A stretch of DNA of 64,000 nucleotides, from assembly GCA_011033025.1 (NCBI GenBank), contig WFMF01000252.1, positions 186,001 to 250,000 on the forward strand, in the 5' to 3' direction. A program made the translations under genes and the position numbers. Below are positions 717 through 57,070 of this stretch, one piece after another; the stretch's first letter is position 1, and each line of letters begins with the position of its first letter. The notes beneath the pieces are model-generated. The model ran no database searches and was not told the origin of the DNA. It saw nothing but the letters and a program-made list of their open reading frames with translations. This DNA is from Beroe forskalii. Taxonomy: Eukaryota > Ctenophora > Nuda > Beroida > Beroidae.

Positions 717-760
717 CTGATGACGTCATTATCATGACTTTAAATGGTGCGCAGTTCATA
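717..760 (-). mobile_element. CRE-MITE copy, decayed
   Basis: The core TGACGTCATTATCATG is intact at 721, followed by the usual TTTAAATGGTG spacer. The second arm and outer ends are hardly recognisable. Confidence 0.6.
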
Positions 761-927
761 CCGAATCAAGTACAATAATATCCAGTGATACTTATAATTT
801 ACCATCGCATTCTTTTCCTGCCACGCTGTACCACTTATTGTCCTGTTAAAGTGCAGGTGTCCTATTATTTATATATATATATTTATATCGATACTTTAGT
901 ATTGATAACGAGTGAAATATTCCGTCT

Positions 928-1015
928 CACGTGACTTATCATTCAGCCAATCGTAGGTCGGAGATTTCGCTGATTAACCCAATCAGACTGCAAGAATTTC
1001 GCCGATTTAGCCAAT
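928..1015. promoter_or_regulatory. CACGTG plus three CCAAT boxes at exact 32-bp spacing
   Basis: CACGTG lies at 928-933 and CCAAT starts at 947, 979 and 1011, so both intervals are exactly 32 bp. The two 32-bp units also share a TTTCGC-GATT segment, so this is a diverged tandem repeat as well as a phased NF-Y-type site cluster. No gene is recognised nearby. Confidence 0.5.
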
Positions 1016-1127
1016 GGGGGACGTGTTATCGATTATCAGATAGTTTGGAAATGCTTACTCTTGTAAGAACAATATAATAGGATGAGTCCATATATCCTCG
1101 GTTGGTATATACAGCACCTGGAACAGC

Positions 1128-1190
1128 CTGGTTTTAATGACGTCATTATCACATATTAACATGGGGCGTTACTGACGCATAACCCCCGTG
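1128..1190 (-). mobile_element. CRE-MITE copy
   Basis: TGACGTCATTATCA starts at 1138. The second arm survives as ACTGACG near 1171, followed by a C-rich end instead of the usual CCGCC. Confidence 0.65.
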
Positions 1191-3490
1191 TCCCCTGCTC
1201 AGAGCTCAGTCTGTGAAATACAACAAGAAAAGCTGGCACCCACCTGTCAGGCTGTTAATTGCTACAATTAACCACCCTCACGTGATGTGGTGATTTATAG
1301 TTAGTGGGGGCAATATAGATGATATGGATATTATTCAAAATAGTAAATACTGAGGATAATTTGATATTAAATATATATCAGTAAGTACTCTGAGGCAGAT
1401 GGTTTTTGAAGGGTGTCATGAGAAAGTGCGAATGGTTCCGGGATTCGTTATATATCTACCCATCATGTGGGCTATGAGAGGTCATCGGGCTGAGAACTGA
1501 GATGATGTGGGCTTGTGAACCAATATCGGGTGAAGTAGATTATTTATCCCGGTGGAGAAATTCCAAGATGTAACTTCCAGGTCTCTTTCTGGTTCCTCCA
1601 TAATTCACACATTTGAATTGTGCCGATTTTTGCGTCACATAATTATCATATGCAAGAGCGTCACTCCATACTCTTACATTCCCGAACAGAAAAAGTGAGA
1701 CTCAGGTTTTATTGCCACTGTCGCACAGGTTTTATTCCGAAGTTTTCCCAAACAAATTTATTTTGTAAAGTCATAGATTATTCCCAACGTCAGTTACAAA
1801 TCAATCTCAACCTCATTCATCGTAACCAAGTCAAGTCATTCATGGTAATTGGGAATAGATTAACTTTTAATTGAAAACTGGCCAATCATTAACCCAATTT
1901 GAATTGACGACTTTCCTTCTTCATATTTAATTAGTTTTATTTAATAGTTCCCAATAAATCGTTGTGTTTGGAAACCCATAAAATATCAATTTTAATTGTT
2001 AAAAGGATAAACACCTCTCGCAAAACTTAAATTACATTGCAATAGCAAACTAATTATTGATTAACCATCAATTTAATTCGATTAAGTTCCATCCAAATTG
2101 AGTTAGGATTAGAGTCAGTCCCTTCTCAATTATCCTTTTGATGAAACACCTTGGTTCAAGGAAATAGCAGAAAATGAAGCACGCTGTCTACAGAAATGTT
2201 TAATTTGGTGAAACAAAAAAGACAATTTAGCGTAAAATTAAGCACTGGTAGGGCGATGAATAATGCTTCATTTGGTATTGCGCTTTCTAAATTTTCGTAC
2301 TTCACGATATTTCTTTGATAAGATACAGAAACTTCAAATTTCACCTTTGAGCTTTGTAAAGCTTCATTCCACTAGTTGAAGTAAGTCAAATAATTCGAAA
2401 TATTTGATATCAAATTTCTCTATTAAAATCACCTAGCATCCACCCTCTATTCTTGTTTCTTTGTATGGACTAGCCCCTGCTTGATCATTGAACCTACGTT
2501 TAAATTTTGAAACTAATTCGATCTGAATCATGCGTGGAGCGTGGGTTGTTAAAATCAGAATCGAGACATTTATTGTACTGGATTCGGTCCAAAATTCTAA
2601 AAATTTTTAACTTTCTGTTCAGAAGTCGCGCGCAACAATTTTAATTTTTGGCAGTATTTGAACTTGCTTCGTTATAAATCAATGAATGAAAGTCTGGCAT
2701 GTTACACAAAATTTTTCGACAAGAAATATCAAATTATCATGCACTTCTTGGGAAAGGGAATTTTAATTTACAAAATTCATCGACAGCTTTCATAGTCCAT
2801 TTCCTGTGATCAACCAATCCCAATCGCATCTCACCATTAAACGCTCCTTCTGATTGGTCCTTCTTTAGACCACTCAGCTGGCTCCATTTCGCAAGACCAG
2901 ATTTCTATTGGCTATCACACTTCATCTGACGTCATGAAAAGAGATCTGTATGCTTTATTATGGGGCAATAAATCGGTTTTATACCAAACAATGGAGATTT
3001 ACTAAAATCTCGACCTGTATAATAATACGAAGTTCAGTGACCATCACAAAACAGGCTCGACCCTCCATGGCACATGTCGAACTACTTTGCAATAGGTAAT
3101 GTAGTCGTAACACAAGAATAGTTTTTGTATAATATATAAACTTCTTGCTTGCGTTGACATTGAGATCTAATGCAATTCAATATAGATTTATATATGCTGT
3201 GAAGGGACAATACCCGCTTGGGAGTGAGGTCAGGGCTATGGTTTAAGCATGTCAACCAGTAGTGTCAAACCTTTTAATATTTTAACATATAAACCACTAT
3301 CATATATATGATAATGCAGGGCACCGAAGCTATCACTAAAACACGCTCTATTGACATCAACACAATACAAATCGGGGGAGAAGTTTTGTATTGTTACTAT
3401 CGCACAAGTTTTAAATTAAATATATATATACGTCCCTTTTAGTAGCGTACATAACTCGTGTCACAGTGAATTGTGAGCACCCTTTTGTTG
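1191..3490. other. AT-rich intergenic stretch, no gene seen
   Basis: No recognisable coding sequence; the longest open frames (62-84 codons) have no domain or compositional signal. A loose group of CCAAT/ATTGG motifs (2814, 2820, 2853, 2907) lies just before a lone TGACGTCA at about 2930. That site lacks MITE arms. Confidence 0.5.
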
Positions 3491-3494
3491 AGTT

Positions 3495-3582
3495 GCGTGA
3501 GAAGAGTTAGCGTAGAAGAGTGACGTCATTATCAGGGTTTAGAATGGGAGTTGATGACGTCACATCGCCTGCTATTCGCACC
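3495..3582 (-). mobile_element. CRE-MITE copy with both arms
   Basis: TGACGTCATTATCAGGGTTT at 3521 and GTTGATGACGTCA at 3550 form the two inner arms. Outer remnants GCGTGAGAAG (3495) and ATCGCCTGCTATTCGC (3564-3579) match the family ends loosely. This is one of two copies in which both arms carry a full TGACGTCA. Confidence 0.75.
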
Positions 3583-4314: not shown

Positions 4315-4360
4315 ATTGATATTAGCGTCATTATCATAGCTGAAAACAGGAAATTAGCAA
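4315..4360 (-). mobile_element. CRE-MITE remnant
   Basis: GCGTCATTATCATAGC at 4325 is the core with TGA changed to AGC; the other arm is lost. Confidence 0.45.
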
Positions 4361-4940: not shown

Positions 4941-5002
4941 AGGCGGTTTAGCGTCATCAGCTCACCATGTTAAACCATGATAATGACGTCACTCCAACGC
5001 TC
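4941..5002 (+). mobile_element. CRE-MITE copy
   Basis: Starts with AGGCGGTTTAGCGTCATCA, then the CTCACCATGTTAAACC spacer and ATGATAATGACGTCACT. The right outer arm ends at CCAACGC. A good representative of the inner half of the family. Confidence 0.8.
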
Positions 5003-5167
5003 ATATCTCTTAAACGTGACCTGTGGGTGACTCAAAACGTGCCAGGGAAACCCATGATATTTCTCAACGATTTGTCAGGAGACACACATATTTTGGGAGA
5101 AGAGACAGCGGAAATATATTTTAAATGAGTAGTGGCAAATTGTGTGACAACAGTGGTTTGGTAATTT

Positions 5168-6712: not shown

Positions 6713-6719
6713 AGTCAAC

Positions 6720-8226: not shown

Positions 8227-8407
8227 GTTCGGATGCTCCATTGTCAGACTTTATACTCCGCGCACGAGAAATAGGCGGATCAACGTCATCAACTCACTAC
8301 ATAATCATATGATAATGACGTCATCCTACCCGCCTATTTCCCGCGCGTGGCGTATAATAGAACTTGAGTTCGGATGCTCCCTTGTCAGACTTTATAATAG
8401 AACTTGA
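8227..8407 (+). repeat. 40-bp tandem duplication: one copy carries a CRE-MITE, the other looks empty
   Basis: GTTCGGATGCTCC starts at 8227 and 8368. Both copies continue through TTGTCAGACTTTATA to ATAGAACTTGAG. In the first, the sequence is interrupted after TTTATA by the MITE at 8256-8352. In the second it is continuous at 8391-8399. Confidence 0.85.
8256..8352 (+). mobile_element. CRE-MITE, near full length, with flanking TATA
   Basis: Outer arms CGAGAAATAGGCGG (left) and CCGCCTATTTCCCGCG (right) are strong inverted repeats, with CTCC/GGCG at the tips. Inner parts are CAACGTCATCAACTCAC and ATGATAATGACGTCATC. TATA stands on both sides (8252-8255, 8353-8356). The neighbouring duplicate has a single TATA, so the target duplication is TATA, or TA if the tips are longer. 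Confidence 0.9.
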
Positions 8408-8533
8408 GATCTGAGATCTCGCTGTTCGCTGTAAGGTCTGGAAGACACATAATTATAGGAGTGCAGATTCTTTGTCAAGCTGTGAACTTGAGATGTCTCT
8501 GTTCTTTGAGGCCTGCTAGATAAATTATTGGAG

Positions 8534-10838: not shown

Positions 10839-11814
10839 TGAAATTTTATGGAGTGAGAAATTTATATGGGATTTTTTTCCCAAATTGATTTCAACATAGA
10901 TATTTTGGATATTTCTGAGTGGGTATAATATTTGTAGAACAGTGTCAATCTTCTTATCATACCATGTGCTTTTCTGTCTCGCTGAATATTAACTTTTATT
11001 CTTAGAAGTGGAGCACCGTGACCAAGATAAGACCCTTTTTGTATTCTCTGATTTTCTGACGTTTTGCGTTTTTCGACGTTTCAACGACTGTCACGAGATC
11101 ACCCACGTAGAGAAAGTTGTTTTAATTGTCTAGACATTTTAATAAATTTGATTGATTTCATACTCGATCATCAAACGCTTTATGTTATTTTCTGTGTGAT
11201 AAGTTGAATGACAGATGCAACTGCTACCGAAATTCAAGATGTCCGATTCAATGGCTTTCAAAATAAAGATAAGTTTCTTAGAATTCGCCTCTTAAAATAA
11301 TACGATCCATGATAATATGATCACTTGTTATGAGACTATAAATGGTTAAATGTTCCCGTCTGTTATATTTATAACCCATGATATTCAGGGCAATATTGTT
11401 GATTGGTCTGAAAAGCCAAATCCAAGAAACCGAGGTCCATTAGAACTCCGTATAATTATTTGAGTATATATATACTAGCATTGCTCTTAGTCCTGGAACA
11501 ATATATATAAATGGCGCTGGAGAAAAGGTTTTTGAGGAGGAATATTCCCCAACCTCCGCACTCGACAGGGTTACATTTCCAAATGTCCTCGGTCCTGCAC
11601 GAACCGTATAGGCGAACCAAACTCCCATCATTTTCACAGCTCAAAACAGTGCCTTGATGAGATTTCTCGCTGCCAACTCCTCCCTCTATAACCCTCGTAA
11701 GCACAACACATTTTCTGTTTCTAAGTAAACCGGCCGGGCAATGTCACGTCTTCATTGTCCCCTGCTCCCCTCTCTGTTTTCAGCCAGACGGCGTTTTGTA
11801 GGTAAATGAATCAC

Positions 11815-11920
11815 TAAACCCCGCGTAAGAGAAATAGGCGGTTCAACGTCATCAACTCATTACTTTGGGCTATGATAATGACGTCATCGTACCCGGCTAT
11901 TTCTCGCGCGTGGGGTTTAA
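11815..11920 (+). mobile_element. CRE-MITE, best full-length copy (family reference)
   Basis: About 105 bp. Left tip TAAACCCCGCGTAAGAGAAA continues to TAGGCGG; right tip is TTTCTCGCGCGTGGGGTTTA. The tips are inverted repeats of about 26 bp, and TA flanks both sides. Inside, CAACGTCATCAACTCA and ATGATAATGACGTCATCG form a second, less exact inverted pair, so the whole copy is an imperfect palindrome. It has no coding capacity. Size, inverted ends and TA flanks fit a non-autonomous element moved by a Tc1/mariner-type transposase; no source element is in the window. Confidence 0.9.
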
Positions 11921-17119: not shown

Positions 17120-17170
17120 GGTTCATAAAGTGCTGTTTTAAGTTATGGTAATGACGTCATCTGGGAGTCA
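17120..17170 (+). mobile_element. CRE-MITE remnant
   Basis: TTAAGTTATGGTAATGACGTCATC (core at 17152) is kept. The left arm is only TCATAAAGTGCTG. Confidence 0.5.
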
Positions 17171-17965: not shown

Positions 17966-18001
17966 GTTGCCTAGCAACGCGGATATGAGTTGCCTAGCAA
18001 C
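17966..18001. promoter_or_regulatory. Two perfect RFX X-box palindromes
   Basis: GTTGCCTAGCAAC occurs at 17966-17978 and again at 17989-18001, each followed by GCG. Both match GTNRCC-N-RGYAAC exactly. Metazoan RFX factors bind such sites in promoters of ciliary genes. The pair is a 23-bp tandem repeat, so it may have arisen by duplication. No coding exon was recognised within 1 kb. Confidence 0.45.
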
Positions 18002-18009
18002 GCGAATAA

Positions 18010-18062
18010 GAGGCGGTAGATGTGACGTCATTATCATGGTTTATAGTTATAAATTGAGCTAG
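18010..18062 (-). mobile_element. CRE-MITE copy, directly after the X-box pair
   Basis: AGGCGGTAGATGTGACGTCA then TTATCATGGTTTATAG. The GAGCTAG end is all that remains of the far arm. Confidence 0.7.
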
Positions 18063-19867: not shown

Positions 19868-19930
19868 TTTGGGGATCTTTCTCAATCATTACTCTAGTTA
19901 ACATATGATAATGACGTCATTTTGAACTGT
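19868..19930 (+). mobile_element. CRE-MITE copy
   Basis: CTCAATCATTACTCTAGTTA replaces the usual left arm; ACATATGATAATGACGTCAT (core at 19912) is intact. Confidence 0.6.
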
Positions 19931-19948
19931 CATGGTGGGTGAAAAAAT

Positions 19949-19971: not shown

Positions 19972-20535
19972 GAATTACAACCTTTATAAATAAACCTCCT
20001 AAGGTATGTTATTTACTGAGAAGTATGCTCGGCAGGAACACTTCTTTTTCTCAGCCGGAGAAGGAGCACCCATTGTTGTAAATGGAAGCTGTAGAGCCGG
20101 TAAAATGATGGGATGCGGTGTGCTTGGAAACAGTATGTGTCATATTATTGTCGGAAGTATATGAATCCTAAAATATTTATATATATTAAACCAAATGAAA
20201 CTCCAGCATGTGGCGGGACAAATAAAATATTTCCTTGTGTTTGAACTAAGTAATATTTCCGGATAAGTCCCTTGTTTTTTCTCGGTGGTTTACAGCAGAT
20301 TCCGTTGTACGTGTGTTTTTGTAGAGTTTACAGAGACATTATATTAAAGCGCCAGGCAGCCTTGTTGTTTCCCAGCTCAGCAATCAGACAAGAAAAGAGC
20401 AGCTGTTCCGTTATTCGAATTACTGTAGCATGTCAAAATGTTTCGAAAGGCAATGACTTCCCTTCGAACTTTTCTGGGTTCTTACCCTCATGCTGAGAGC
20501 TTCTGTTAATCGTTGCCTGCGCATTTAATGCAGCT

Positions 20536-20592
20536 ATGTGTGACGTCATTATCATAGATTAAAGTGCTCCATTGCTGACGTTTTAGCGCTTT
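20536..20592 (-). mobile_element. CRE-MITE copy
   Basis: TGTGACGTCATTATCATAG (core at 20541), then ATTAAAGTGCTCC and TTGCTGACGTTTTAGCGC as second arm. Confidence 0.7.
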
Positions 20593-20599
20593 TCTCCTC

Positions 20600-23707: not shown

Positions 23708-23780
23708 GTAGGCGTGAACTCGTCACTAACGCCCCACCTTGAGATGTGATAGTGACGTCACCTCAATCAAGTGGCGTGCA
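23708..23780 (+). mobile_element. CRE-MITE copy
   Basis: GTAGGCGTGAACTCGTCACT is the left arm, GATAGTGACGTCACC (core at 23753) the right, closing with GTGGCGTGC. Confidence 0.65.
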
Positions 23781-23932
23781 TGTCACACAAAAAGGGGTGC
23801 AGAAAATGAGGGAAACGGTTAAATATAACCTGTTCTTTTCTGCCGGTAAACGGTCGATAATATAAATGGTTTACGAGGTGTAAAGGAATTGCTATATATA
23901 TATATTATCACTGCTCGTGCTTGATAAGCGTT

Positions 23933-23985
23933 TCCGAGTGACGTCATCATCAGAGATTAACACGTTGCCTTGGTGACGTGCCAGG
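23933..23985 (-). mobile_element. CRE-MITE copy
   Basis: GAGTGACGTCATCATCAGAG (core at 23939), spacer ATTAACACGTTGCC, second arm TTGGTGACGTGCC. Confidence 0.7.
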
Positions 23986-24842: not shown

Positions 24843-25136
24843 CTCGATCGTATCCTTAGACCTGACTTGTTCTTTTATTTTCGCCCTTCCCTGTACACGG
24901 AAATCTGAACAATTCTGTACATGAATAAATGTAGAAATATATCCTAAATCCTTGTCTCTTCTTCACGTAGCATTTCAATGTGGCAGCAGCATCTATAGTT
25001 TGTGTTTTTATCTTTCCTGGAAACAGACTCTATCATCAGACAGACTTTGTTTATTACATATTTAGCAATTATAGTATTAGCAACACTCATGTCACGAAAT
25101 ATAATATAGATGACAACGATCATTAGATATATTTTA

Positions 25137-25206
25137 GGCGTTTAACGTCATGAATTCGCCATTATAAATCATCATAATGACGTCACTCTAATCTGTCAGT
25201 TGGCGT
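25137..25206 (+). mobile_element. CRE-MITE copy
   Basis: GGCGTTTAACGTCATGAATT, spacer CGCCATTATAAATC, then ATCATAATGACGTCACTC. Ends with GTTGGCG. Confidence 0.75.
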
Positions 25207-25518
25207 ATATATAAAATTGGCAGTAGGAAAATTATATAAACAGTTATAAAAGATGATCAAGTTCCACTTGAAAATTATCAATATATTTATTTCTTTTATT
25301 AGCTTTCTCGCGTTGACTAGGTCTCTGGCTGAAGCTTTTTAATTAAGGTCTAAATATACTTGCTTCAATTTGTACAGCGTTCCATGTGTGTTAACATATT
25401 GGGAGTAATTTTTATTAAAACTTTTCGTGTTTTTATATAAATATTAAATAGGTAACTTTAGATAATGTAACATAGATCATCTGGCCATCTGGAATTCCGC
25501 ATAGAAAATGGACTTGTC

Positions 25519-26893: not shown

Positions 26894-26912
26894 TATCATA
26901 CTAAGGCCAGCT

Positions 26913-32908: not shown

Positions 32909-33185
32909 GGCCTGCTTCATAGAGAACTATGATGCGGACATTACTATTTCCCTTCGAAACTCTCATACAAATATCTCTAACTAAATCTCTTAGATTTGTA
33001 CTCAGATCTATATATTTATATTAAGCATACATAAAATAAGTATAAAATAAAATAAATATCGTAGGTAAATATATATTACCAATTATGCATGGTTGCCCGT
33101 CTTCGCTACTAACTTTACTAATCAGTCAGACTAAAACGTCTAATGAGACACGGAGTATATTGTTACGAGTCGAGCTCGGGATACC

Positions 33186-33245
33186 AGCGTCGTGACGCCA
33201 TCAACGCCCCACGTTAACATATGACAATGACGTCATCGTGAAGCG
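33186..33245 (+). mobile_element. CRE-MITE copy
   Basis: CGTCGTGACGCCATCAACGC, spacer CCCACGTTAAC, then ATATGACAATGACGTCATCG. Confidence 0.7.
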
Positions 33246-34609: not shown

Positions 34610-36240
34610 CGTGTGCTGTGAATTGCACTAATTCTCCGTCCAACGTTATTTGTCCATTGTAATGTCTGTTGGGGAAAACGGTAAATTTTTCTTCATTGTT
34701 ATTTTGAAATTTATTGCTTTGAGCTTAATGCTAGATCATATATTATTTGAATTCAAAACGCTCAAACTACAAAATAATATAGTATGACTATATATTTTGT
34801 ATGTTATATGATTTATCCCAATCCAGTCTGAGATTATGGGTGCCTTTTGTGATGGAACAAAAACACATATATTGAATTTTCAATCAACAGTTGTCAACGA
34901 TGTAAGTCCCATCTAAGCTCTCTTTAAATGTCTTAGGTTAGAGCTCTCAAATTCAAGCTTTTTGTTTTAATTTACATCTTTGCGACCCGAATAGAACTAG
35001 AAAGACAAGATAGATCTATTGTCAACTTTTCAGTGAATTACAGACATTGTCTCCCTTTCTTTCGAATTCACACACACATGAAATATGACAATAACGCCAC
35101 ATAAATTACATTGTGCTCTAATTACCCTGGACCTAGCCCATTCTCTCTAACTTTTTACACACACCCCTACATATTAGAGGTTCTAAAAGGGAAGTTTATG
35201 TTTTAAACTTTACAACACTTCTTTATGATATACAATCAGATTTGAGATTATGTGTGATATTAAAACATAATTGAAAGTGCTGATGGTTATAGAAATCAAT
35301 TCACTACTGTACCTTGATCAAAAACTCATTGCCCATGAGCTGCTTAAAACCTGTCAATTTGATAGGTTCAGATTTCCACAATCAAAACGCACATAAAGAT
35401 TATTTGAAAGTTCCTGTGTTCAAAAACTTGAAGCTCAACAGAAAATCGGCTCAATAGTTGAAAAAGGTACCAAACACGCTACTTGGACATTCTTGAAGCA
35501 TGGTTGGTACATTTTTGGGCATAACTTAAGGAGTGATTTTGGCAATGGCCAGAATTAGAACAAAGTATGCCCCTGGATATGATCAGTGATTACTTTATTG
35601 GCATAATCATCGCGGACTTTATATAACTATTCACGCTTGATTCTGCCACTTCAAATTTTTTAACAAAAATTCGAAATTTTCGGCTCCATTTTTCCCATTT
35701 TCTTACGAATAGATGAAGTGAAGACTTTGCAATATTTTTCGTTAATCAATGATAAACTTCTATATTGTAACTGCCAATAATAATGGAAAAGAAGTATAAT
35801 TTCATGGAAAATTCTATTATTAGCGCGTTTAAAGCGATAAAGTCAGTTCCTGCGTTCTTGCCATTCATTCTGCAGCTAGAAAATTCATTTCTATATTTAA
35901 AGGTTTAAAACTCGCTTCAATTTAATATGTGCATTTGAGCTTACATATATTTTTATGTTTTTTCTTCATATAAAAAACTTTTCATCAAAACATATTCTCA
36001 AAAATCACCAAAGCTTTACATTTTGCTACGTTCAACTCGAACCTACCATTGTCTTGAATGCTCTGCAACTAATAAAAGCTCAAAGGAGCTCATAAATGTA
36101 CCTCAAAAAGAAATAATAATAAAAAACGAAGCTGTAAAATTTATTGAACCCTTTTGACACAGTGAACCTGTCAAATTACAAATGATATAAGTATTTTTTC
36201 ATTTTTCTCTCACTCCACTGGTCGCGCACCGATCTATAAT
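34610..36240. other. AT-rich intergenic stretch, nothing recognised
   Basis: No frame above background, no repeat family members. Several A/T-only stretches. Confidence 0.45.
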
Positions 36241-36247
36241 AGACCTT

Positions 36248-36295
36248 CAAGCATGACGTCATTATCACGCCTCAACACAGTATGTTTTGACTTAA
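36248..36295 (-). mobile_element. CRE-MITE remnant
   Basis: GCATGACGTCATTATCACGC (core at 36254); TATGTTTTGACTTAA is all that is left of the far arm. Confidence 0.55.
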
Positions 36296-38040: not shown

Positions 38041-38095
38041 CTGCGTCATCATTTTCCTACATTAAACCATGACAATGACGTCACCTTTACACACT
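38041..38095 (+). mobile_element. CRE-MITE copy
   Basis: TGCGTCATCATTTTCCTACA, then TTAAACCATGACAATGACGT and CACC. A 61-codon frame passes through it by chance. Confidence 0.65.
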
Positions 38096-39682
38096 ATTGG
38101 TCGGAGCGTGATATCCTACTTGAAATAACCTTTGTTTTGGGAGGCTTTGTTTCAGTGCTTAGCAGGGGCTAATATCTAACTGTTTACTTTCCAAGTCATA
38201 TTTCTATGTTTATTTATATAGACAGTTGGTAAGTTGAAGCAAGCAGTATGATCAAGCCAGGTCTATTGACTCATAGGGACTAGAGAGTGATGTCAATATT
38301 ATAGTTTAAAGTGACCAAATAATGGCGCTAAATCTCCAATATACCCATCGCGTGCCGCCATCTTGTTTACACCATCTGAAGTTTTATATGTTTTAGAGTT
38401 TTTAAAAGGGGTTCGCTATAATATGTGTATCGTAAGCTGCTATTAAGCTAGCGTGACCACTGATCACAGGTTGTTATGGTGGTAGAATGATTAATGACGT
38501 AATTAGTCATTATCGTTTATTGCATGGCCCACGGCATTATGTTCATCGAAATTATTAGTAAATACTGCTCTAATGAACCGCTGAATGATTCAATTATATT
38601 TGGGATGGAACCTTTGGAGATTAAGGTCGACAGAAATTTGGGAGAGGGTGATGTAATGGAAAAATTCATTTCATAAGAAAGAAATTTCCTCTCCAAATTG
38701 CCACGTTGTTATTTTCAACGTTGGTAGAACACTTTGGCTAGAACTTCGACTTAGTTCCTAACTATATGACGAATTTCAGGGTTGAAACTTCTAGGTACTT
38801 CTGGATTACTAATCCATATTTGTATGTGGTTCTGAAGAGGGAGTAGCGAGAGAATACTGTTCCACTTCATTGGGGGGAAATCGCTAAATTGGAATTTCTT
38901 AAATCATTTCCTGAATACTAAATTCTCGAAGATTAAAGGCCAAACTATCTGACAAAATTTATGTATTTATGTTTCGCCATGATTAATACGAATTATACAG
39001 TAATCAATTTTCAGGTTCTCGAATATGAAATTTTGGCTGCCTGTAAATAATAGGCGACTTAAATAAGCGTTTGTTGCAGCTGAGGATAGTAAAATCGATG
39101 GATAAAAGCGCCTATTTTTCTTCAGGGACTTTTTTATTCGGATGATAACTCATTTACCCCCAGAGGGTAGTAGTTTTGTACTAAACGACTTAAACACTTC
39201 AGTTTATGATGATTTTAGAATCCATTCCCGAAGCAATACTACAACACGAATATTTCTGTTGATTTAAGAAATTTCAACATCAAAATATGATACGATGATA
39301 GTAAAATCGATTTATTTCTTAATGAAACACACTTTTTACATTTTCATTCGGAATTCTCCTATCAACTGCTACTAGGAAATAATCACTCAGTGATTAAGTG
39401 CAAATCCTGACAGCATAATCGCTCCGTTATTCATGACATAACCGTTTCCATGATTAAATGGCCCGTCTGATGTCTAAAGCAGCACTTTAGCTCTTGAAAT
39501 TCACATCGAAAATTCAAATTGCATCAATCTTTTTTCTGATTGATTAATAATGTCTGGCGAAAGTATCATTAATATTTGGTGATGTTCCACAGAATGAAAT
39601 GGGTGAGAGGTTCAAACTTCAAATATTCAAAAGATGCATTGATTTCAAATTTTGGCATGAATTATATTTGATTGGTCCATTT

Positions 39683-39896: not shown

Positions 39897-39955
39897 AGGC
39901 GGTTAACATGACGCCATCATCATGAGTTAACATGTGTTGTTGATGACGATACACC
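39897..39955 (-). mobile_element. CRE-MITE copy
   Basis: AGGCGGTTAACATGACGCCA then TCATCATGAGTTAACATGTG; second arm TTGTTGATGACGATAC. Confidence 0.7.
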
Positions 39956-40389
39956 GAATATCATATAGTTTGTGCGCGAAACCAGTACGTATCATGACTC
40001 GATGGTTTGAGGACTAAAATCGGCTATGTTTCGTGCGTGCTGCTCTTCTTTACTCAGACACATCTGAATATCATATGAAGCTGCTTGAACTGTCTCTGTC
40101 CTGTCTAACTTAAATCTGTGGTTTAATTTGGAAAATATTTCACCATGCATACCTAAAAATTCAACTGCAATTAAATTTTAATCAGAGATTTAAATGCATT
40201 ATATTATATGCGACGATTATCGAAATTTGTTCCAAAGTATTCTCAAAAACTATTTGCATTCTAAAATCGTTTCGATGAATTGTCTCAAATTTGTGTTTAA
40301 TGACCTTCAAACGGCTGTTCAAATAGTCGTAGCTTCCCGGTTGAGTCAAAAGCACATTTGCTAAACACATTTGCTGAAAAAGGCGTTTT

Positions 40390-40440
40390 GCCGGCCTCAA
40401 TTCACCATCCTAAACCATAATCAATGACGTCATCCTTCAC
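40390..40440 (+). mobile_element. CRE-MITE copy
   Basis: GGCCTCAATTCACCATCCTA, AACCATAATCAATGACGTCA and TCC. The core has a 2-base expansion (ATAATCAATGACG). Confidence 0.65.
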
Positions 40441-40989: not shown

Positions 40990-41042
40990 CTCTGATGACG
41001 TCATCAGTTTCCCGCTGTAATCCCTTATTCTGACGCCACTTT
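40990..41042 (-). mobile_element. CRE-MITE copy, short
   Basis: CTGATGACGTCATCAG (40992-41007) is a perfect 16-bp palindrome. TTCTGACGCCACTTTC at 41028 would be the second arm. Confidence 0.5.
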
Positions 41043-41817
41043 CAGACGTCTTATAATCGCAATGAGAAGGGGGATTTAGCGAGCCGACAAGTCGTTCGCT
41101 GATCTGAATCTCGTGTAAATATTTTACTAAATCGCGCGGTTTTCATCGTCGCAAAGAAGATCTTTATCAGATAGAGGAAGAAGAGTAATTTCAGTTTCAA
41201 GGATCGAGTCAATTTATGCGAAAGCTCGGCTAAGTATGGCTAAGTTTTGGAGGATTCAGGATTAACCAAATTGCTGAGTGGATAAGAACATGCCTTGATG
41301 AGGCCTGTAAGGAATGCATTTTATTTCCCATTCTTTTGACTACTTTTTTGGCATGGAACCAGTTTTGATGGTCATTTTTGCTAATTTACTGGTTTGGAAG
41401 GTTTTTTTGAGATGTTAATCACCAAATTGGTTTCATTTAATGAGGTGAATATTTGGAACCCACGTTGTTTCCTGTTAAAAATCCACCCTAAAAACATACT
41501 CAACGCATTTTGTTTATATTTTGAAACCTCATCAAATATATTCACAACCGCTTGTTATACATCACTTGTTACATTTTATTAAACTTTGTTTTTCTTCAAA
41601 CAAAATATTTTACCTTATATGTTTGCATGATTTTAAATGTAAATATACGCAGAATTTCCCCTGTATTATATTCAAAATAGGTTTATTTAAACACATGAAA
41701 TCGCATGAAGATTTTAGATTTGATGAAACAATGTGTTACATATAGGGTTTATGAATTGCCATTATGTGAAACTGAGTTATCAGTAAAAATGATAGCAGAA
41801 ATTCAATCTAATCTGTG

Positions 41818-41913
41818 AACGAGGTAAATAGGCGGTTAAAATGACGTCATTATCACAGCAGAAAATGGTAAGTTAACGATGTTAAACCGTCCCCTTCTCA
41901 CACGCGGCGTTTA
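41818..41913 (-). mobile_element. CRE-MITE, near full length
   Basis: AGGTAAATAGGCGGTTAAAA and TGACGTCATTATCACAGCAG on one side; AAGTTAACGATGTTAAACCG and CTTCTCACACGCGGCGTTTA on the other. The right tip matches the TAAAC-GCCGCG ends of the reference copy. Confidence 0.85.
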
Positions 41914-42007
41914 ATTTATGATTACGACCGATATCAATAGCAAATTGTAAAGAATGTTGGGATAAATTTAGAGGTGAACAAACTCAGTCATATGGTGGGT
42001 GAAATTG

Positions 42008-42062
42008 GAGGGGTGACATCACAACGACTCCTTTTAACCATGATAATGACGTCATTCTCAGG
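42008..42062 (+). mobile_element. CRE-MITE copy
   Basis: GGTGACATCACAACGACTCC, then TTTTAACCATGATAATGACG and TCATTC. It is only about 95 bp after the previous copy, in opposite orientation. Confidence 0.7.
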
Positions 42063-43111: not shown

Positions 43112-43168
43112 CTCATGTGACGTCATTATCAAGCTTGGAAGTAGTCTGTTGATCACGTAGCTGGGCTG
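43112..43168 (-). mobile_element. CRE-MITE copy
   Basis: TCATGTGACGTCATTATCAA (core at 43118); second arm GTCTGTTGATCACGTAGCTG. Confidence 0.7.
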
Positions 43169-43390
43169 AAAATTTGACATCTGGTGCCAGCATAGATGAA
43201 TCAATAGTTTGCAAATGTGTCCTCAAAATTTGGAATACACACGTAGGTGGAATCGTAATATGTTTCATCATTAGGAAAAGAAATCAAGTGTTATATGGGA
43301 AATCAGGCCATAGTTATGAAGTGAAGAAACAGTTATGGTTTATTTTCATGGTACGATTTGGCTTACAAGATCATCAGCTGAGGGACAATT

Positions 43391-43452
43391 CGGTTTGACA
43401 TCATCAATTCTCCATTCTACATCATGATATTATAATGACGTCACTCGCAACC
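43391..43452 (+). mobile_element. CRE-MITE copy
   Basis: CGGTTTGACATCATCAATTC and TCCATTCTACATCATGATAT then TATAATGACGTCACTCGC, with a 4-base duplication before the core. Confidence 0.7.
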
Positions 43453-43775
43453 ATCTTATTCGATCCATAGATTATCTTCACGAGTTCCAATGTCATAATT
43501 ATACAGGGCTGTCAGGGAAGTTAATCAAATAATCAGGCTTTGTATGTATTTGATGAAGTTTTCTTTAACCGATGGTTTGGCAGGATCATTCCCGATATTT
43601 ATAATTTGACTCAGCAGGTCCCTTAATTTACATCTCAAAGAAAGCATCCTACAAATTTTGATCCATTTGTGACGAATTCATTTCGTTTGAACAACATCTA
43701 CCCGGGTACATATTTCACATCTGCCCGGTCAGATCACCCTGTCCCTGAAACTGCCTGGAACTGAAATATCTGATT

Positions 43776-43828
43776 GAGAATGACGTCATTATCATGATTT
43801 AAAGTGATATTTTATCGACGCATCAGAT
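43776..43828 (-). mobile_element. CRE-MITE copy
   Basis: GAATGACGTCATTATCATGA (core at 43780); second arm TTTATCGACGCATC. Confidence 0.65.
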
Positions 43829-44887
43829 TATTTAAATCGGCTGATTCCCTTGAACCCGTGTCCTCAGTTCATTCCACCACGTCCTGTAGCAGGGATATAC
43901 TGGATCATAGAAACACTGGATCATAGAAACACTTCCTTTGTCAAAGTGTCAACAGATACTTCATAATCAGGTTTACTGGGTCATGACCAGGGTTTTATTG
44001 GACCGATGGTATATTTATTGAGGGTATATGTTTTGGAATTTGGTCATTTTGGAATTTATAATTGTCACGCGCCGCGGTGTTTCAAAAAGTCTGATGATCA
44101 TCGGTTTGATCAGATCATGTGGTATATTCTACCATGAGTCATGGTGTGGGTTGTAGGATGACTGGTAGTTTCTGGGTATGTAGGAGTTGTTTTATTGATG
44201 AGTTCATGAACCATGGTTGGTATTTGTCAGAAAATAGCTTCATTGGAAGATGATCTTACATAGATCACTGTCAAGAGTTTAGCGAAAATTAATAGTTGGA
44301 TGCCACGAGTTTGATTCGCCACGAATTACGAAATACCGCATTTCATCAGATAAATTTTCCATGTGACCATGTTTCCTGAAATTCTGGAAGAATAAATAAA
44401 TTGTATTTTAATTACTGTCTCATTACGATAATGAACATCTAAAATGCCCGGCCTCTTTCTACATTCTACAACCACACCAAATTTTGACCTACCAATAAAA
44501 GTTGTCTTGCCACATTGAACTACGACTTTTAAAAACCATTCTTGCTGATTATTTTGGAGTTACACTTTCGACTTTTTGGTTTCTTCTTTCCATGTAATGG
44601 AAATAAGAGCCACTCAAACTCACAATCATAGATATATGATTGCGAACGTAAGAATTTAGCTTACTTTTATTATAGAGCATTTACCACGAGCCTTAGAATG
44701 ATGAAATTATTAAATTTACATTCACGAACTAAATCTTTTGTCTCATCGAGATCTTTACCCTCATAATAAGTCCAGCATCTTTTCTCCACCCTTTTCCACT
44801 CCTTATGCGTTCCAGCCGTATGTACATCAGTCTGATTACATAGCACATCGTTCATACAACCATCAAAATTTATGTCCTCCAAAAATA

Positions 44888-44950
44888 ACATAGACGGCAT
44901 CAATTCACCATTCTAAACCATGATAATGACGTCACTCTAACCCGCCTAAA
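44888..44950 (+). mobile_element. CRE-MITE copy, close to consensus inside
   Basis: AGACGGCATCAATTCACCAT, TCTAAACCATGATAATGACG and TCACTCTAACCCGCCTA. Confidence 0.8.
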
Positions 44951-45154
44951 AGTCTGAACTTTGTGTTCAGCGAAACAAGCATAGAGATCATCCGAGGGGA
45001 GCTATCTCTCATGAGTCATGGGGTTTCATAATTTTGTAATCCGCTGTCTAAACCTGGAGAAACAATGACAAAGATATATATTTAGAAGATTAAACGCTCC
45101 TCCTCCCCGCTCTTCTCTTCTCCTCCTCTCGGTGGCATCCTTTCAGGTTTACTT

Positions 45155-45260
45155 TAACGACGCATTAGAGAAATAGGCGGTACAACGTCATCAACTCACT
45201 ACATTGAGCTATGATAATGACGTCATCCTACCCGCCTATTTCTCGTGCGCGGCATGTTTA
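45155..45260 (+). mobile_element. CRE-MITE, full length with TA flanks
   Basis: TAACGACGCATTAGAGAAAT and AGGCGGTACAACGTCATCAA on the left; TGATAATGACGTCATCC, CCGCCTATTTCTCGTGCGCG and GCATGTTTA on the right. About 105 bp, the same length as the copy at 11815-11920. Confidence 0.9.
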
Positions 45261-45522: not shown

Positions 45523-45852
45523 GTAATTAGCCACTCAGAGCTGTCTTTCTCGTAATTTCTAATCAAGGACAGTAATGTTTTCGATCAGTATGGATCAAAG
45601 TAACCGTAACGCAGTTTAAAAAACAATTTGCCTCAGTTAATGTCCGCTTAGGAGGAGTCAAGATTTTCTTTCGAAACGTCACGCTTCAATTTCTCCCTCA
45701 TTAACTTTGCTAATCGGCGGATTAATAAATCACGTGACCGCAGTTAAACCGTCACGTGGGCCGGCTAGATCTGCCTCGTTATATATTAGAAGAGGTTTAG
45801 AACACCGTGCAACTATACGAAGATACACCTCTTCGAGAATATAGACAGTGTG

Positions 45853-45917
45853 TCGTGCACAACGCTCCATGTTAACCCCTGATAATGACGTCACTGCCAT
45901 GCCGCCTATTTCTCAGG
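45853..45917 (+). mobile_element. CRE-MITE copy with right outer arm
   Basis: GTGCACAACGCTCCATGTTA, ACCCCTGATAATGACGTCAC and CATGCCGCCTATTTCTCAGG. Confidence 0.8.
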
Positions 45918-46388
45918 CTGCCAGCAGGAGATTTGGCCGGAAGGATGAAGGCCGGTGGTAGTTGTTTGAGACCATGTTGCTCTACCGGAACGGAAAGAAA
46001 CTTCGTTTCAAACATCTAATCGTGGAGCCTTGTGTCTCTTGCGCGCGGTAAGGCGTGCGTGAGAAATAGGCGGTTTTGAGTGACAGTTTCACGTGGTTTA
46101 GAGCAGCGAACTGCTGACATTTCGGAGTCTATTCTTTGCTCCGACATGCGGAAGTGGTCGCATTACAAATGCAACTATTCAGCTCTGTGAAGGAAGCGGA
46201 AAATAAGCACTCAAGTTGAACATCTCCACAATTTTACGTCTGCCATATATAACATATACAAATAAATATACAAATTTAACTGTCCTCCCCAAACATAACT
46301 CACAGTTGAATGTTACGCAACAACCATGACTCAAACTTACAACCTGATGTCGAGGAAGAGTTCTCTATATCCAGCGACATATATGTCC

Positions 46389-46482
46389 TAAACCCTGCGC
46401 GCGAGAAATGTGCGGGTATAGGATGACGTCATTATCATAGCTCGATGTAGTGAGTTGATGACATTAAACCGCCTATTTCCTA
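46389..46482 (-). mobile_element. CRE-MITE, full length with TA flanks
   Basis: TAAACCCTGCGCGCGAGAAA then TGTGCGGG and GGATGACGTCATTATCATAG; TGAGTTGATGACATTAAACC and GCCTATTTCCTA close it. Confidence 0.9.
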
Positions 46483-46596
46483 ATATGTCAGATGGGGTGG
46501 TTTAGCGGGTGGTTTGATCAAGCATGTCCGAGGAGTAGATCATTTACAGGATAATCTAAGCCATTGTTTACAGAACTAAATGTCAGTGGACCTAAT

Positions 46597-47754: not shown

Positions 47755-47840
47755 CGCGCGCGCGTGGTGATTCCACGATCTCGTCAGCACTTTGTCACTT
47801 TGAGCCATGATGGTGACATCATCAGGACCGCCTATTGCAT
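47755..47840 (+). mobile_element. CRE-MITE remnant beside a CG-rich alternating tract
   Basis: GCCATGATGGTGACATCATC and AGGACCGCCTATTGC keep the right half. The left end is CGCGCGCGCGTGGTG, an alternating purine-pyrimidine tract that resembles the CpG-rich family tip. Confidence 0.5.
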
Positions 47841-49124: not shown

Positions 49125-49423
49125 CAATACATTGCCGATGTCAATGTCACCAACTTGCGGCACCTCTGCCCACGCACTATTTGGAGCCCCTTTAGGGACA
49201 CGCCCATGCTCACCCATGTCATCACCCGGTCTAACAAACCCCCGTCAATATATCACTGACAATAGATTATAAATTCTATAAATACAATCTCCCCTCCGAT
49301 TATTACAAGGAATCCATAGTCGCCTCCCTTTATATGATGCTGATAAACTGATCTCGTGTAGACCTTCACAGCTTCAGAACAGGGCTGCTACACGGTTCTT
49401 GTGTGAACAGTAGTCAGTCTAAA

Positions 49424-49484
49424 GTGATGTCATTATCAGGGGTTATAGTGGTATGTTGTGGGTGTTAGGAAGCGCCTATTTACT
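49424..49484 (-). mobile_element. CRE-MITE copy
   Basis: AAGTGATGTCATTATCAGGG on one side, GTGGGTGTTAGGAAGCGCCT and ATTTACTCC on the other; the core has GATGTCA. Confidence 0.65.
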
Positions 49485-51164: not shown

Positions 51165-51222
51165 TAGACGCGTCGCTAACACACCACTACGAGGTAAGAT
51201 AATGACGTCATCTTATTACCAT
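51165..51222 (+). mobile_element. CRE-MITE copy
   Basis: GACGCGTCGCTAACACACCA and GTAAGATAATGACGTCATCT (core at 51202). Confidence 0.65.
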
Positions 51223-52640: not shown

Positions 52641-53065
52641 ATGGGTGGGGTGGGAATGTGGGCCAACATAATATGAGAGGACAAAAACTGTTCGAACATC
52701 CTTGGACATTCTCTATTCCACACGAATCTTCAGTTTTATGTTGAAATCCATTAGAATTTAACTGCGAACTTCATCAAAGTATTTAGCACTTTTTGGATTC
52801 AATTCCTAGGAATTCAACTTATAATTCTGTTTAAGAATTGAATATAGTTGAACCAACCCCTTTGAAGTATTTGAAAATAATGCCCCTTAAACTTATACCG
52901 CTTAAACTGAGAAACTCAATGTCTCACTGTCTCGGTTTTATATCTCAATTTATAACCGGGTAGGTATATATAAATTTAAAACGCCATTATCTCGGAAAAG
53001 CGTTTAATATAAAACGAAAAACACCCCATTAAATCACTCTGAACCGGACATCCCCTCAGCACTTC

Positions 53066-53110
53066 TCCATTTCCTACCCTGATAATCCTGTCACTTCAAC
53101 CGGCCGTTAA
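53066..53110 (+). mobile_element. CRE-MITE remnant
   Basis: CTCCATTTCCTACCCTGATA, ATCCTGTCACTTC and CGGCCG keep the layout; the core palindrome is lost. Confidence 0.35.
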
Positions 53111-53507
53111 TTCGCGATATATTGCTCAAAAGATATTATATCTTAATTGATTTGTCGCGTTGAATGAAATACGTCTGAAACGGATTGGTTTTGAGAAATT
53201 GCCGCCTTGAGTTTTATATAGTTTACAGTAGTTTATACGGTATGAGATGGTTTATGTCTGGTGGAGTTGAGATATTTATATTATTGCCATTTTATTTCTG
53301 AAATTATTGATTTTGTATTTAAGCCATTATCTCATATAAAAGCTATGAGCTCCAAGTGATTGAGAACTTCTTGAAACACGGCTTAAATACTTCTGTTAAT
53401 AATCGGAAGGAAAGGTTTATATCAAGGAAGTCCCCCGACTAATGGTGGGGAAGTTGTGGTAAATGGTTTTTATCACATCAAAACCAGACGGAAAAGTTGT
53501 TAATATA

Positions 53508-53612: not shown

Positions 53613-54420
53613 ATTTTCTGTCTGGGTTATATCATGTCGGTCGGGTGTTAATCAGTGACTCAGCCGCCCTTAAGCTGCAAAAACATAATCTTGCAAGGCT
53701 TAGAGAGATGTCGCAAGGTCTGAGAAAGCCTCCTGAAATCTCCACATGACAGTGTACCTTATTGGCCTTTATTGAGGCGGCCATTTTTAGCGGTCCTTCG
53801 GACAAAAATCTTCAGGCCGGTTAGATAAGGGTTGCCACTTACGTGTATGGCGCTGCGCGATCGTAAATTTCAGAATGATTCTCATTTCTTGAACTCGGTA
53901 CAACTGTTTATGTTTAAGAGACCATGGAAACTGGAATCTTAGTAGGTATATAGGTACCAGCGGTATGATATTTTGTACCTACTGTCTTCGTACATAACTG
54001 ACATGAGTTGCGCGGACTGCATCAAAACAGCACTTCTGTACTGTGGTTTGTAGTTAAAAATAACATCCGAGGACCGGGGATGAATGATCGGAAACGCAGT
54101 GGAGTACTTTTAACTTATTAAAACCAGTCAGGAAACAATGATTGATGCAAAAAATCTAAAATCAGAAGCTTTTGAATATAATATATCTCTCATGATGATG
54201 GTCGTCAGAACTTCAGAAAGTCAATTTTTATGATCTTTTGTGAGTTCATCAACTCCATCAATTTCCTGAGAGATTGTCGCACTTAACATGTAACTTATTT
54301 CATGAAATTCTACAAAAGATGCCTCACAAATCTTCTACTCCTTAGGGTCTATTTCGCAAAATTCGCATCACTCGGTTCAATGGTTCAAAATAATCCCCAT
54401 CGCGTAAAGTGTACGGTTCT

Positions 54421-54468
54421 ATGGCATCAATTCGCAATTCTGAGCAGTAATAACGACGTAATTTCAAG
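54421..54468 (+). mobile_element. CRE-MITE remnant
   Basis: ATGGCATCAATTCGCAATTC and AGTAATAACGACGTAATTTC follow the family layout with a mutated core. Confidence 0.4.
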
Positions 54469-54679
54469 AGTACGACACAAAGTTGCATGCTTCGTTTATC
54501 TCTAATTCTCCTGGTAGACAGGACGTTGTCACATTTTCAAGGTTTTCTTGACAGGGACAGAGACATCGTATGTTTGTATGTTTTTATTCTATTCTTTATC
54601 GCCATATATTATCTATTTTATCGTTGGGTTTTTGTCCACTATGAAGGGCACTGTGTGTCGCTCACAATTCACTGGTGGT

Positions 54680-54736
54680 TGAAAGATGACGTCATTATCA
54701 TGTAGTAAAATGACAAATCGATGACGTGTAAATATT
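54680..54736 (-). mobile_element. CRE-MITE copy
   Basis: AAAGATGACGTCATTATCAT (core at 54686), spacer GTAGTAAAATGAC, second arm AAATCGATGACGTGTAAA. Confidence 0.7.
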
Positions 54737-54739
54737 TTT

Positions 54740-56730
54740 TTCCGTGTGGGGTTTAAGAAGAGATTCCCACTATACTCGATCCCTTTATACGGCATCTGCA
54801 CCCCTCAGAGATGTTTTAGTCTGCTTAGATTATTTGATTTAGGGGTGCCATTATATAGCACAAATCTCTCAAGTACACACATCATCACGTTTTTATCACC
54901 AACTTTTTATCATCAACTTTTTGAGTATGTCTGACATATTTTTGTGTTGATTTTTGGAGTATATATCTATATAGAGTAAATTTCGACTGAGCAATGTCTC
55001 TTTTTTGGCAGATTGTATGAAAGTTCTTGAGTTTCAGATACCGAGTCGGCTGTCAAGATTAGGGTGATGGAAATCATCAGTATATTTACGGAAAGTATTA
55101 TATTGTCGCTCAAAAATAGTAGGCACTACAGAATTACTTCATTTTCATGCTTTGAAAAAGCGAATTGATGACATGGATAAGAAATGGTTATTTTCTGGTA
55201 GTGAGATTTCTTTTCTCAGGCTAGTTTTCATCAATTCCAAGTATGCCAACCATCCACTATGGCGGTTTACAATTCAGCGTGAAATGAGCTCAGGACTTCA
55301 TCTACTGAAGGATTTTTCTCAGAATTTCTAAGGGAGGGTATAATGCAAGCGGATGAATGTTGGCGGGGGCCTAGTTGTTTACCCACTCCGGATTTCTAAG
55401 GGACCGGAGAGTATATAATGTTGGACTTATTGCGGGTACTAGGCGGGGAAAATAAATATAATTTCCTTTCAGATTTTATCATTTCTGCTGAAGGGGGATG
55501 TTAGCGAGGCCTATAACATAACCCACTTCATGCTCGACCAATCTGTGCGTAGCTTCATACAAACCCTGCGTTATCATTGGTCGAACCTCAAGCCACCATA
55601 CTTCCGTTTTTTCGCTCATATATTCATGGGTTATTCTATTTAATGTCTGAAGATTAAATTATTCTAGGAAATTGATGTTAAATGGGATCGTCAAAACGTT
55701 TAATAAATGCTGCTGCTGATATTCTGCAAACAAAACGCGGTTTCGCCTCACAAAATCGTCTTGGCTCTTAGTTAACCGTACCGGTGACGGAAGTTGCAGA
55801 AGTCTGTTCATTTCATTCTGATGTGTGGAATGCTTCCTCCAACGATGTCAAAAGTGCTCCTTATAAGAGTTAGGAAATTGGCAACCATAAGTTCAGCGAA
55901 GACTTATAATGAAACGCTTTTCTATGACAAAACATTTTACGACATGGTCGTAGTGTTCAGACATTTCTGGAGAACTGATCTGATATCATTGAATTATTTG
56001 TAGAATTATTCCTTTCTACCCCCTCAATACCAGATTCTCCTAAAGGACTATGTTCATTTTTGCAATTTGCATCATGTCCAACGCCCTTAGCTCACCTTCA
56101 CTCTTCAGACCTTATCTCATGTCCCATGCCCTAAGCTCACCTTCAGACCTTTCCTCAGCTTCCATAAGCAAGGTCTGGTCTAAATAAAAGCGAATAGTTC
56201 TGCAACCCTAAAACAAATTCCTTTTTGAATTTTTATTCTCTTTGACTAACCACAGTTCTATACCTGACGTAATGTTCCCACCAAAATAAACCATATCTTG
56301 ACGCTACAGCTATCTATATTACCTAACCGAATCACTACTACAACAACTATCTATTTCGTGATAATTCCAACCCCAAAATATAACACATCAGTTATTCTCG
56401 GTGCGTTCATCTTCAAAAGGGATGAATTCAGAAATATTTTTGACGGTTATCTCTCACGTTTAATATTATTATTATTATATGTTTTCAAACACTTTTACTT
56501 CAGTGCTGTCAGCACATGTTCATGTGGCATTATATTATCATTAATATTATGAAAAGAGAACCCATCATCTTCTTCTTCTTTGCGAGATAATAAAAGTGTG
56601 AAAACTTATTCACGATAAAAATGGGGCTTGGTAAATATATTATATTTTTCTCTCTTCCATGTGATTCTTATTAAAAGATAAGGCTGTCAAGGGTCATCTT
56701 TTCTCCACATAAGCCATACACGAACGACAG
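54740..56730. other. Intergenic stretch, no gene seen
   Basis: Contains a CCAAT/ATTGG inverted pair (TCGACCAAT at 55537, ATTGGTCGA at about 55581) that may be a remnant of the second MITE family, and a partial repeat of TTAGCTCACCTTCA (about 56088 and 56135). Confidence 0.4.
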
Positions 56731-56734
56731 ACAA

Positions 56735-56805
56735 TTCGGTATGATGTCATAATGACGATTTAAAATGATTCATATTGCGACGTTTAACCGCCTATTTTTT
56801 ACGAA
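56735..56805 (-). mobile_element. CRE-MITE copy
   Basis: GGTATGATGTCATAATGACG on one side; TTGCGACGTTTAACCGCCTA then TTTTTTACG on the other. Confidence 0.65.
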
Positions 56806-56999
56806 CCGTGTATATTTTTCAGCTAGACGCCACCGTCTTCCCTCTTAAACTCATGTTTTTATCAGTTGGTTTTTATCACAACTCCAGGATTGTCATCACA
56901 TCTTGATATAAAACAGATGTCACGTGACCTGTTTACGTTCGTGGGGATTTTTGGAGCAGCACCAGCCCACCATTATTCAATCATAGGTCCAGTTAATGG

Positions 57000-57070
57000 T
57001 GGTTGGTGATGACGTCATTATCATGGTTCAGAATGGGTAGTTGGTGATGCTAAACTGTCTGTTTTTGCGT
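57000..57070 (-). mobile_element. CRE-MITE copy
   Basis: GGTGATGACGTCATTATCAT (core at 57009), GGTTCAGAATGGGTAGTTGG and TGATGCTAAACTGTCTG. Confidence 0.75.

Follow-up and report, generated by a model that had tools for sequence, protein, structure and literature searches.

Miniature inverted-repeat transposable elements (MITEs) of the Tc1/mariner, PIF/Harbinger and piggyBac/Kolobok superfamilies are short, non-autonomous cut-and-paste elements bounded by terminal inverted repeats, and transposases require the element ends. In Brassicaceae, MITEs carry sites for the transcription factor E2F, and short interspersed elements (SINEs) of the CORE-SINE type combine a conserved central domain with diverging ends. 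The ISX and ISXR elements of the Drosophila miranda neo-X are helitron-derived recognition sites for MSL; 77 sites are reported, with binding shown (PMC4384637). Here we describe a MITE family from the ctenophore Beroe forskalii, found in a 64-kb stretch of assembly GCA_011033025.1 (contig WFMF01000252.1, positions 186,001 to 250,000; hereafter the window). The family is old and very dense and most of its copies are worn, with the exception of a 14-bp core, TGATAATGACGTCA, that did not decay along with the rest.

The family can be recognised from the 8-mer TGACGTCA, which occurs 43 times in the window against 0.67 expected occurrences, a count that none of 100 shuffles reached, and which is the most over-represented of the 8-mers present in at least ten 1-kb bins. 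Allowing up to two mismatches, the 14-mer core gave 54 matches (0.75 expected). A profile built from the four best copies and searched with nhmmer over five rounds (E up to 0.5) returned 95 raw matches, which collapse into 58 non-overlapping loci, 28 on the forward and 30 on the reverse strand; 52 of these have E<1e-3 and 47 have E<1e-5. As controls, the window in reversed form and 20 dinucleotide-shuffled versions contained no match to the profile at E up to 0.01. Within the 52 loci lie 38 of the 43 TGACGTCA occurrences and all 23 exact 14-mers, and three of the five TGACGTCA outside them, at 60.2 and 60.6 kb, belong to a different repeat. An earlier note on this DNA had reported a dense family in both orientations, and both points are borne out; its figure of about 45 copies was too low, the profile search placing the number nearer 52-58. 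Between 0.7 and 57.1 kb the density is about one locus per 1.1 kb over both strands, and the profile matches with 15-bp margins make up 7.7% of the window. The gaps between copies are those of random-like placement (coefficient of variation 0.94; largest gap P=0.47), except for the last 7 kb: no profile locus lies beyond 57.1 kb, with P=0.002 under uniform placement for a boundary picked post hoc. Exact core patterns had no match in viral and prokaryote sequence collections, and blastn of one copy (45150-45265) found none in phages. Literature searches with the 14-mer, the arm strings and the combination of MITE and TGACGTCA returned no relevant paper, the repeat catalogues Dfam and Repbase being outside their scope.

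In the alignment of the 52 copies with E<1e-3, identity to the consensus is 92% in the core, 69% in the preceding 28 columns and 63% on the right side. The core was no better than its neighbouring columns in only two of the 52 copies (Wilcoxon p=2.6e-10). Five of these copies have readable ends, and we refer to the other 47, which are decayed, as old copies. In the old copies the best non-core stretch of 14 columns reaches 73% identity, compared with 92% for the core, and core mismatches are independent of tip decay (1.33 versus 1.35; rho -0.15, p=0.32). Such decay rates are scaled to the remaining parts of each copy within one window, not to dated events. There are 32 old copies with no more than one core mismatch; were the core to decay neutrally at the neighbouring rate, a starting set of about 799 copies (85 kb) would be required to produce them.

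Because the profile search gives the core the greatest weight, we used cross-detection. A left-half model covering columns 1-45, trained on copies found with the core, gave 32 matches including the five good copies, and no false matches in controls. The 27 old copies detected in this way carry few core mismatches (none in 11, one in seven, two in two, three in five, four in one and seven in one), compared with 6-9 at most random places. Detection with columns 46-83 recovered 45 copies, whose left interior has an identity of 0.67 versus 0.51 at random; their core identity of 0.93 is not independent, since these columns contain the core. When the left model was built from the four best copies only, eight further matches appeared at E<0.05, with 14, 14, 14, 13, 13, 11, 11 and 9 of the 14 core positions matching. 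The weaker matches of that model (to E=1) mixed real copies with chance or opposite-strand ones.

The profile consensus is CGAGAAATAGGCGGTTTGACGTCATCAACTCACCATTTTAAACCATGATAATGACGTCATTCTTAACCGCCTATTTCTCGCGC, and the outer tips of good copies resemble TAAACCCCGCGC, which brings the total length to about 106 bp. Two inverted arms of about 45 bp each are separated by a short spacer, and the inner end of each arm is an ACGT motif. The five copies with readable ends start at 8252, 11815, 45154, 46388 and 41809, and by our reading of the ends all five have TA on both sides. The palindromic hairpin that had been proposed for the family forms from end to end in three of them (z -5.7 at 8252, -6.1 at 11815 and -5.9 at 45154), and is absent from the other two (z 0.4 for 46388-46505 and 0.5 for 41808-41915); the 46388 copy gave a z of 0.05 when folded without its far tip and 0.42 with it. 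The proposed TAAAC tips are clean at both ends only in the 11815 copy, the 8252 copy having TATAC and the 45154 copy TTAAC on one side. The earlier note gave a size of 95-105 bp for the best copies; the unit measures about 106 bp, and placing the far tip of the 46388 copy at 46505 would make that copy about 116-118 bp long. Unpaired tip-like matches are also present in the window.

A flanking unit, TTCGGATGCTCC.TTGTCAGACTTTATAATAGAACTTGAG, lies beside the 8252 copy and recurs without the element as an empty site. When the flanks of this copy are joined and one TATA is removed, they differ from the empty unit by three mismatches in 44 bases, two of them beyond the end of the unit. The comparison shows that the unit of about 106 bp inserts. 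The insertion duplicates TATA, or TA if the element itself starts with TA. The duplication may be of 4 bp instead of TA, as suggested by TATA/TATA at 8252 and TTTA/TTTA at 45154; among the flank matches, no further one was taken as an empty site. With terminal inverted repeats in three copies, one empty site, a length of about 106 bp and 52 loci, the unit fits a MITE. The suggestion of a TA-target MITE is supported as regards an inserting inverted-repeat unit; TA stands at both ends of five copies, and for two of these 4-bp duplications fit better.

The same ambiguity applies to a Tc1/mariner-type target, as TA flanks all five copies and 4-bp TATA and TTTA fit two of them better. The duplications at 8252 and 45154 do not match a TTAA target of the piggyBac/Kolobok type. 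No transposase was found among the 16 of 37 open reading frames (ORFs; at least 90 amino acids) that were run against Pfam; in these 16, only the interferon regulatory factor 2-binding protein (IRF-2BP) gene scored above the cut-off, and one ORF had two sub-threshold matches, which were disregarded. A SINE finds no support: ARAGORN, which would overlook decayed tRNAs, found no tRNA in the window, and both the inverted repeats and the empty site point to a DNA element. Within 220 bases, no informative column lies outside -45 to +25 save a marginal one at +91, and in the absence of further conserved positions a motif-dependent small-RNA promoter was also rejected. A structured RNA gene family was set aside, with no Rfam matches at the gathering threshold and no pairs from RNAalifold on 36 of the 52 copies.

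The 47 old copies retain traces of the complete element. Out of a possible 54, their anchored tip score is 25.7, controls scoring 20.7 and the five good copies 37-49. It exceeds the control median in 43 of the 47, and trimming the top third of both sets still leaves p=4e-15. These tip scores indicate that nearly all loci seem descended from the full element. In the old copies, two arms from one copy pair no better than arms taken from different copies (6.11 versus 6.14, p=0.57). The slight excess over shuffles for all 52 (p=0.034) we ascribe to the good copies. A conserved RNA or hairpin in the decayed copies was rejected, given this lack of arm complementarity and the RNAalifold result. The family listed in the earlier note consists mostly of worn, non-palindromic copies, and its MITE reading is right for the unit.

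What might the core be retained for? It reads as TGATAA, a GATA-type motif, fused to TGACGTCA, a motif of the cAMP-response element (CRE) type. CREB/ATF proteins, of the basic leucine zipper (bZIP) class, have the consensus RTGACGTCAY, and the base preceding TGACGTCA is A or G in 44 of 46 old copies. The columns of the left interior are unequally conserved (chi2 120.5, df 27, p=9e-14), with GTCA, CAA and CCA better retained and other positions variable, a pattern like that of a binding motif. An inverted half-site, ACGTCAtCAA, lies about 35 bp from the core at fixed spacing and is kept less strictly than the core. A core matching at 11 or more of the 14 positions is present in 25 of the 27 old copies detected from the left, and 22 of those 25 have it at an identical offset. 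Indels are few: old copies show 59 substitutions per indel in the left interior (354/6), 18 within the core (54/3) and 12 on its right (198/17). The core also recurs in a second repeat with unrelated flanks, which counts in favour of a binding site.

We hypothesised that the GATA/CRE-like site inside this MITE family has been under constraint after insertion, probably as a binding site for a bZIP-type protein, a reading to which we give even chances and which draws on predicted sites in the sequence of a single window. According to this proposal a MITE of about 106 bp, with tips near TAAACCCCGCGCGCGAGAAATAGGCGG and a 2- or 4-bp T/A-rich target duplication, would have spread across the region, and its copies would have retained a job after insertion. 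Each copy would be a composite site recognised by a DNA-binding protein of the host, for which a CREB/ATF-like bZIP dimer is the likeliest choice, with a GATA-like or zinc-finger protein as its candidate partner. Purifying selection would purge core changes and leave the tips free to decay.

Several observations count against this proposal. The core carries two or more mismatches in 15 of the 52 copies when gaps are left out, and in 15 of the 47 old copies when they are counted. A hidden Markov model search penalises indels and so favours rigid spacing. The pyrimidine after TGACGTCA, which would suit a bZIP flank, depends on the alignment, being found in 45 of 45 old copies with hmmalign and in 44 of 47 when they are anchored without gaps, and we do not rely on it. 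Constraint at about 50 sites within 57 kb would also impose a heavy load, save in a special region or a species of large effective population. Some subfamily structure also exists among the copies: the nearest-neighbour identity of old copies is 0.645 versus 0.634 when shuffled (reached by 3 of 60 shuffles), and mutual information shows a small excess in all 52 (62.1 versus 59.7 +- 0.9).

The main rival explanation confines the constraint to the source copies. The core would then be needed for mobilisation, as an internal site for a transposase or helper, and would have no host function; the copies would derive from many diverged sources and each would be younger than it appears. We think this unlikely, yet it deserves to be taken seriously. 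In its favour, the unit does insert and its best copies have inverted repeats, the core lies at the inner end of an inverted repeat of about 45 bp, the four best copies share variants by our reading of the alignment, and there are small subfamily signals. In a moving transposon, constraint on sources could conserve the same core, a further point against selection after insertion. Against this explanation, the ends are the least conserved part of the element, although they are what transposases require. The non-core mutual information of the 47 old copies is 68.04 versus 67.83 +- 1.21, a value reached in 29 of 60 shuffles. The lack of an excess implies that non-core changes are mostly private, as expected after independent decay, so that almost all copies would have to come from separate source lineages. 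Private changes favour upkeep of the core after insertion, but numerous source lineages joined in a deep star would leave the same picture.

It is improbable, in our view, that a dispersed host motif came first (for example an architectural, replication or pairing site) and was acquired by a mobile element later. Most loci would then be instances of the motif and not copies of the element, which would suit columns that are independent and unequally conserved in the manner of a position weight matrix, as well as a second repeat family (10797-10894, 19884-19979) that bears the same core. Against this, 43 of the 47 old loci have tip similarity exceeding the control median where tips are expected. 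Still less probable is non-allelic gene conversion keeping the core uniform, with or without selection, for which ISX in Drosophila miranda offers a precedent (PMC4384637). Conversion tracts limited to 14 bp, with private bases 2-20 bp away, are hard to picture, and beyond the core shared states are not in excess. That copies are visible only if their core is intact is the least credible explanation: the first scans did use the core, and the left-half model was trained on core-found copies, a point that also weakens the case for selection, but left-half detection and the model from the four best copies agree with the profile search and the missing copies would outsize the window.

If constraint did act on the inserted copies, the family may form a protein-binding array seeded by a MITE, at about one site per 1.1 kb, in which composites of about 45 bp were selected while the rest decayed, with a regional or chromosome-scale role. 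Each composite would comprise the inverted bZIP half-site, the fixed spacing of about 35 bp and the GATA+CRE core. We put forward the array and its composite together as a speculative extension, one we would sooner bet against. Its role, if true, would lie in a chromatin domain, replication, pairing or dosage, and not in the regulation of single genes. The density is what selection on single sites would find hardest to explain, and it is also the source of interest. The contrast sits within each copy, and the decayed tips would provide a built-in control for the core. Should the pattern extend genome-wide and across species, it would offer a clean test of whether a large protein-binding network was built by transposons; should it fail, it would show the degree to which constrained source copies can imitate post-insertion selection.

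The copies and the flanking unit are collected in Table 1.

Table 1. Copies of the MITE family and parts of the flanking unit in the window
Feature	Positions	Strand	Evidence or remarks
best full-length copy, 106 bp	8252..8357	+	target site duplication TATA/TATA, hairpin
full-length copy	11815..11920	+	TAAACCCC tips both ends, hairpin
full-length copy	45154..45260	+	TTTA/TTTA flanks, hairpin
near full-length copy	46388..46505	-	one clean tip, no stable hairpin
intermediate copy	41809..41914	-	one clean tip, no stable hairpin
left part of flanking unit, split by element	8228..8255	+	flank comparison
second flanking unit without element (empty site, one TATA)	8369..8408	+	flank comparison
old copy	698..751	-	profile
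old copy	1122..1188	-	profile
old copy	3501..3574	-	profile
old copy, weak	4323..4355	-	profile
old copy	4941..5009	+	profile
old copy, weak	11628..11663	-	profile
old copy, weak	17127..17162	+	profile
old copy	18001..18057	-	profile
exact core; flanks match 10797-10894 (second repeat family)	19897..19931	+	profile, flank comparison
old copy	20528..20595	-	profile
old copy	23708..23766	+	profile
old copy	23923..23979	-	profile
old copy	25136..25201	+	profile
old copy	25505..25582	+	profile
old copy	26269..26312	+	profile
old copy	26837..26895	+	profile
old copy	27222..27298	+	profile
old copy	27567..27622	-	profile
old copy	27792..27850	-	profile
old copy	27976..28039	-	profile
old copy	28743..28810	+	profile
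old copy	30229..30306	-	profile
old copy, both ACGT arms intact	30861..30919	+	profile, folding z -3.9
old copy	31433..31508	-	profile
old copy	33178..33245	+	profile
old copy	36238..36293	-	profile
old copy	38043..38103	+	profile
old copy	38268..38343	-	profile
old copy	39897..39960	-	profile
old copy	40376..40439	+	profile
old copy	40996..41060	+	profile
old copy	42000..42060	+	profile
old copy	43115..43158	-	profile
old copy	43388..43456	+	profile
old copy	43765..43849	-	profile
old copy	44892..44949	+	profile
old copy, one clean GAGAAATAGGCGG block	45838..45917	+	profile
old copy, one clean GAGAAATAGGCGG block, decayed core	46058..46133	-	profile
old copy	47781..47836	+	profile
old copy	49404..49482	-	profile
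old copy	51170..51215	+	profile
old copy, weak	53056..53111	+	profile
old copy	54406..54465	+	profile
old copy; TAAACCCC tip at 54743-54755	54664..54729	-	profile
old copy	55115..55175	-	profile
old copy	56719..56798	-	profile
old copy	56998..57064	-	profile

Other repeats are present in the window. The second repeat is AT-rich and its two copies are alike over about 130 bp, with a TGATRATGACGTCAT core and flanks that are not those of the MITE; the pair scores 80 unmasked versus a shuffled maximum of 45, and 54 versus 37 with the core masked. Its locus at 19897 was counted among the 52. A third pair, at 60214-60340 and 60580-60700 (GGCTTAGGCTAT...), has ATGACGTCATCAA in common and scores 73 versus 31; the second and third repeats are represented by two copies each. 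Once the 52 loci are masked, the top dispersed 8-mer is CACGTGAC, which is about 7-fold over-represented in ten 1-kb bins (for example at 928, 13024-13085, 24195-24252, 33643, 45731-45753 and 49969-50002), with several sites near CCAAT/CCAATCAG. A 47-bp tandem array of 7.6 copies occupies 8532-8885, with about 180 bp between it and the best full-length copy. The repeats of the 57100-64000 region include a 55-bp inverted repeat, 98% complementary, at 61493-61637, and a 70-bp direct repeat, 99% alike, at 59518 and 62415, which may bound a younger insertion of about 3 kb. The IRF-2BP gene at 13171-15273, of an animal-specific family and in keeping with an animal origin of the window, contains none of the 52 loci. 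Its N-terminal zinc finger is in one ORF and its middle domain and C3HC4 finger are in another, possibly reflecting an intron or frame change.

How does this family compare with the known systems? With MITEs of the three superfamilies it shares short length, the lack of an ORF, terminal inverted repeats, a short T/A-rich target duplication and many copies, the hairpin being found here in the three best copies. It differs in that conservation is internal and not at the ends, and no related autonomous element was seen in the window, where 16 of 37 ORFs were run against Pfam; TA or TATA assigns no superfamily. Like the E2F-site MITEs of Brassicaceae, it would be a MITE family bearing and amplifying a transcription-factor site, but those are plant elements for another factor and the sites here are predicted from sequence. 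As in CORE-SINEs, a short central block is kept while the ends diverge, whereas no tRNA was found in the window, and a DNA element accounts for the inverted repeats and the empty site better than a retroposon would. Among the literature considered, the closest analogue is ISX (PMC4384637). In both cases a mobile element would have scattered one protein-binding motif that was later refined or kept. The ISX/ISXR system is built from a helitron with binding shown, in contrast to a MITE with about 50 predicted sites in 57 kb.

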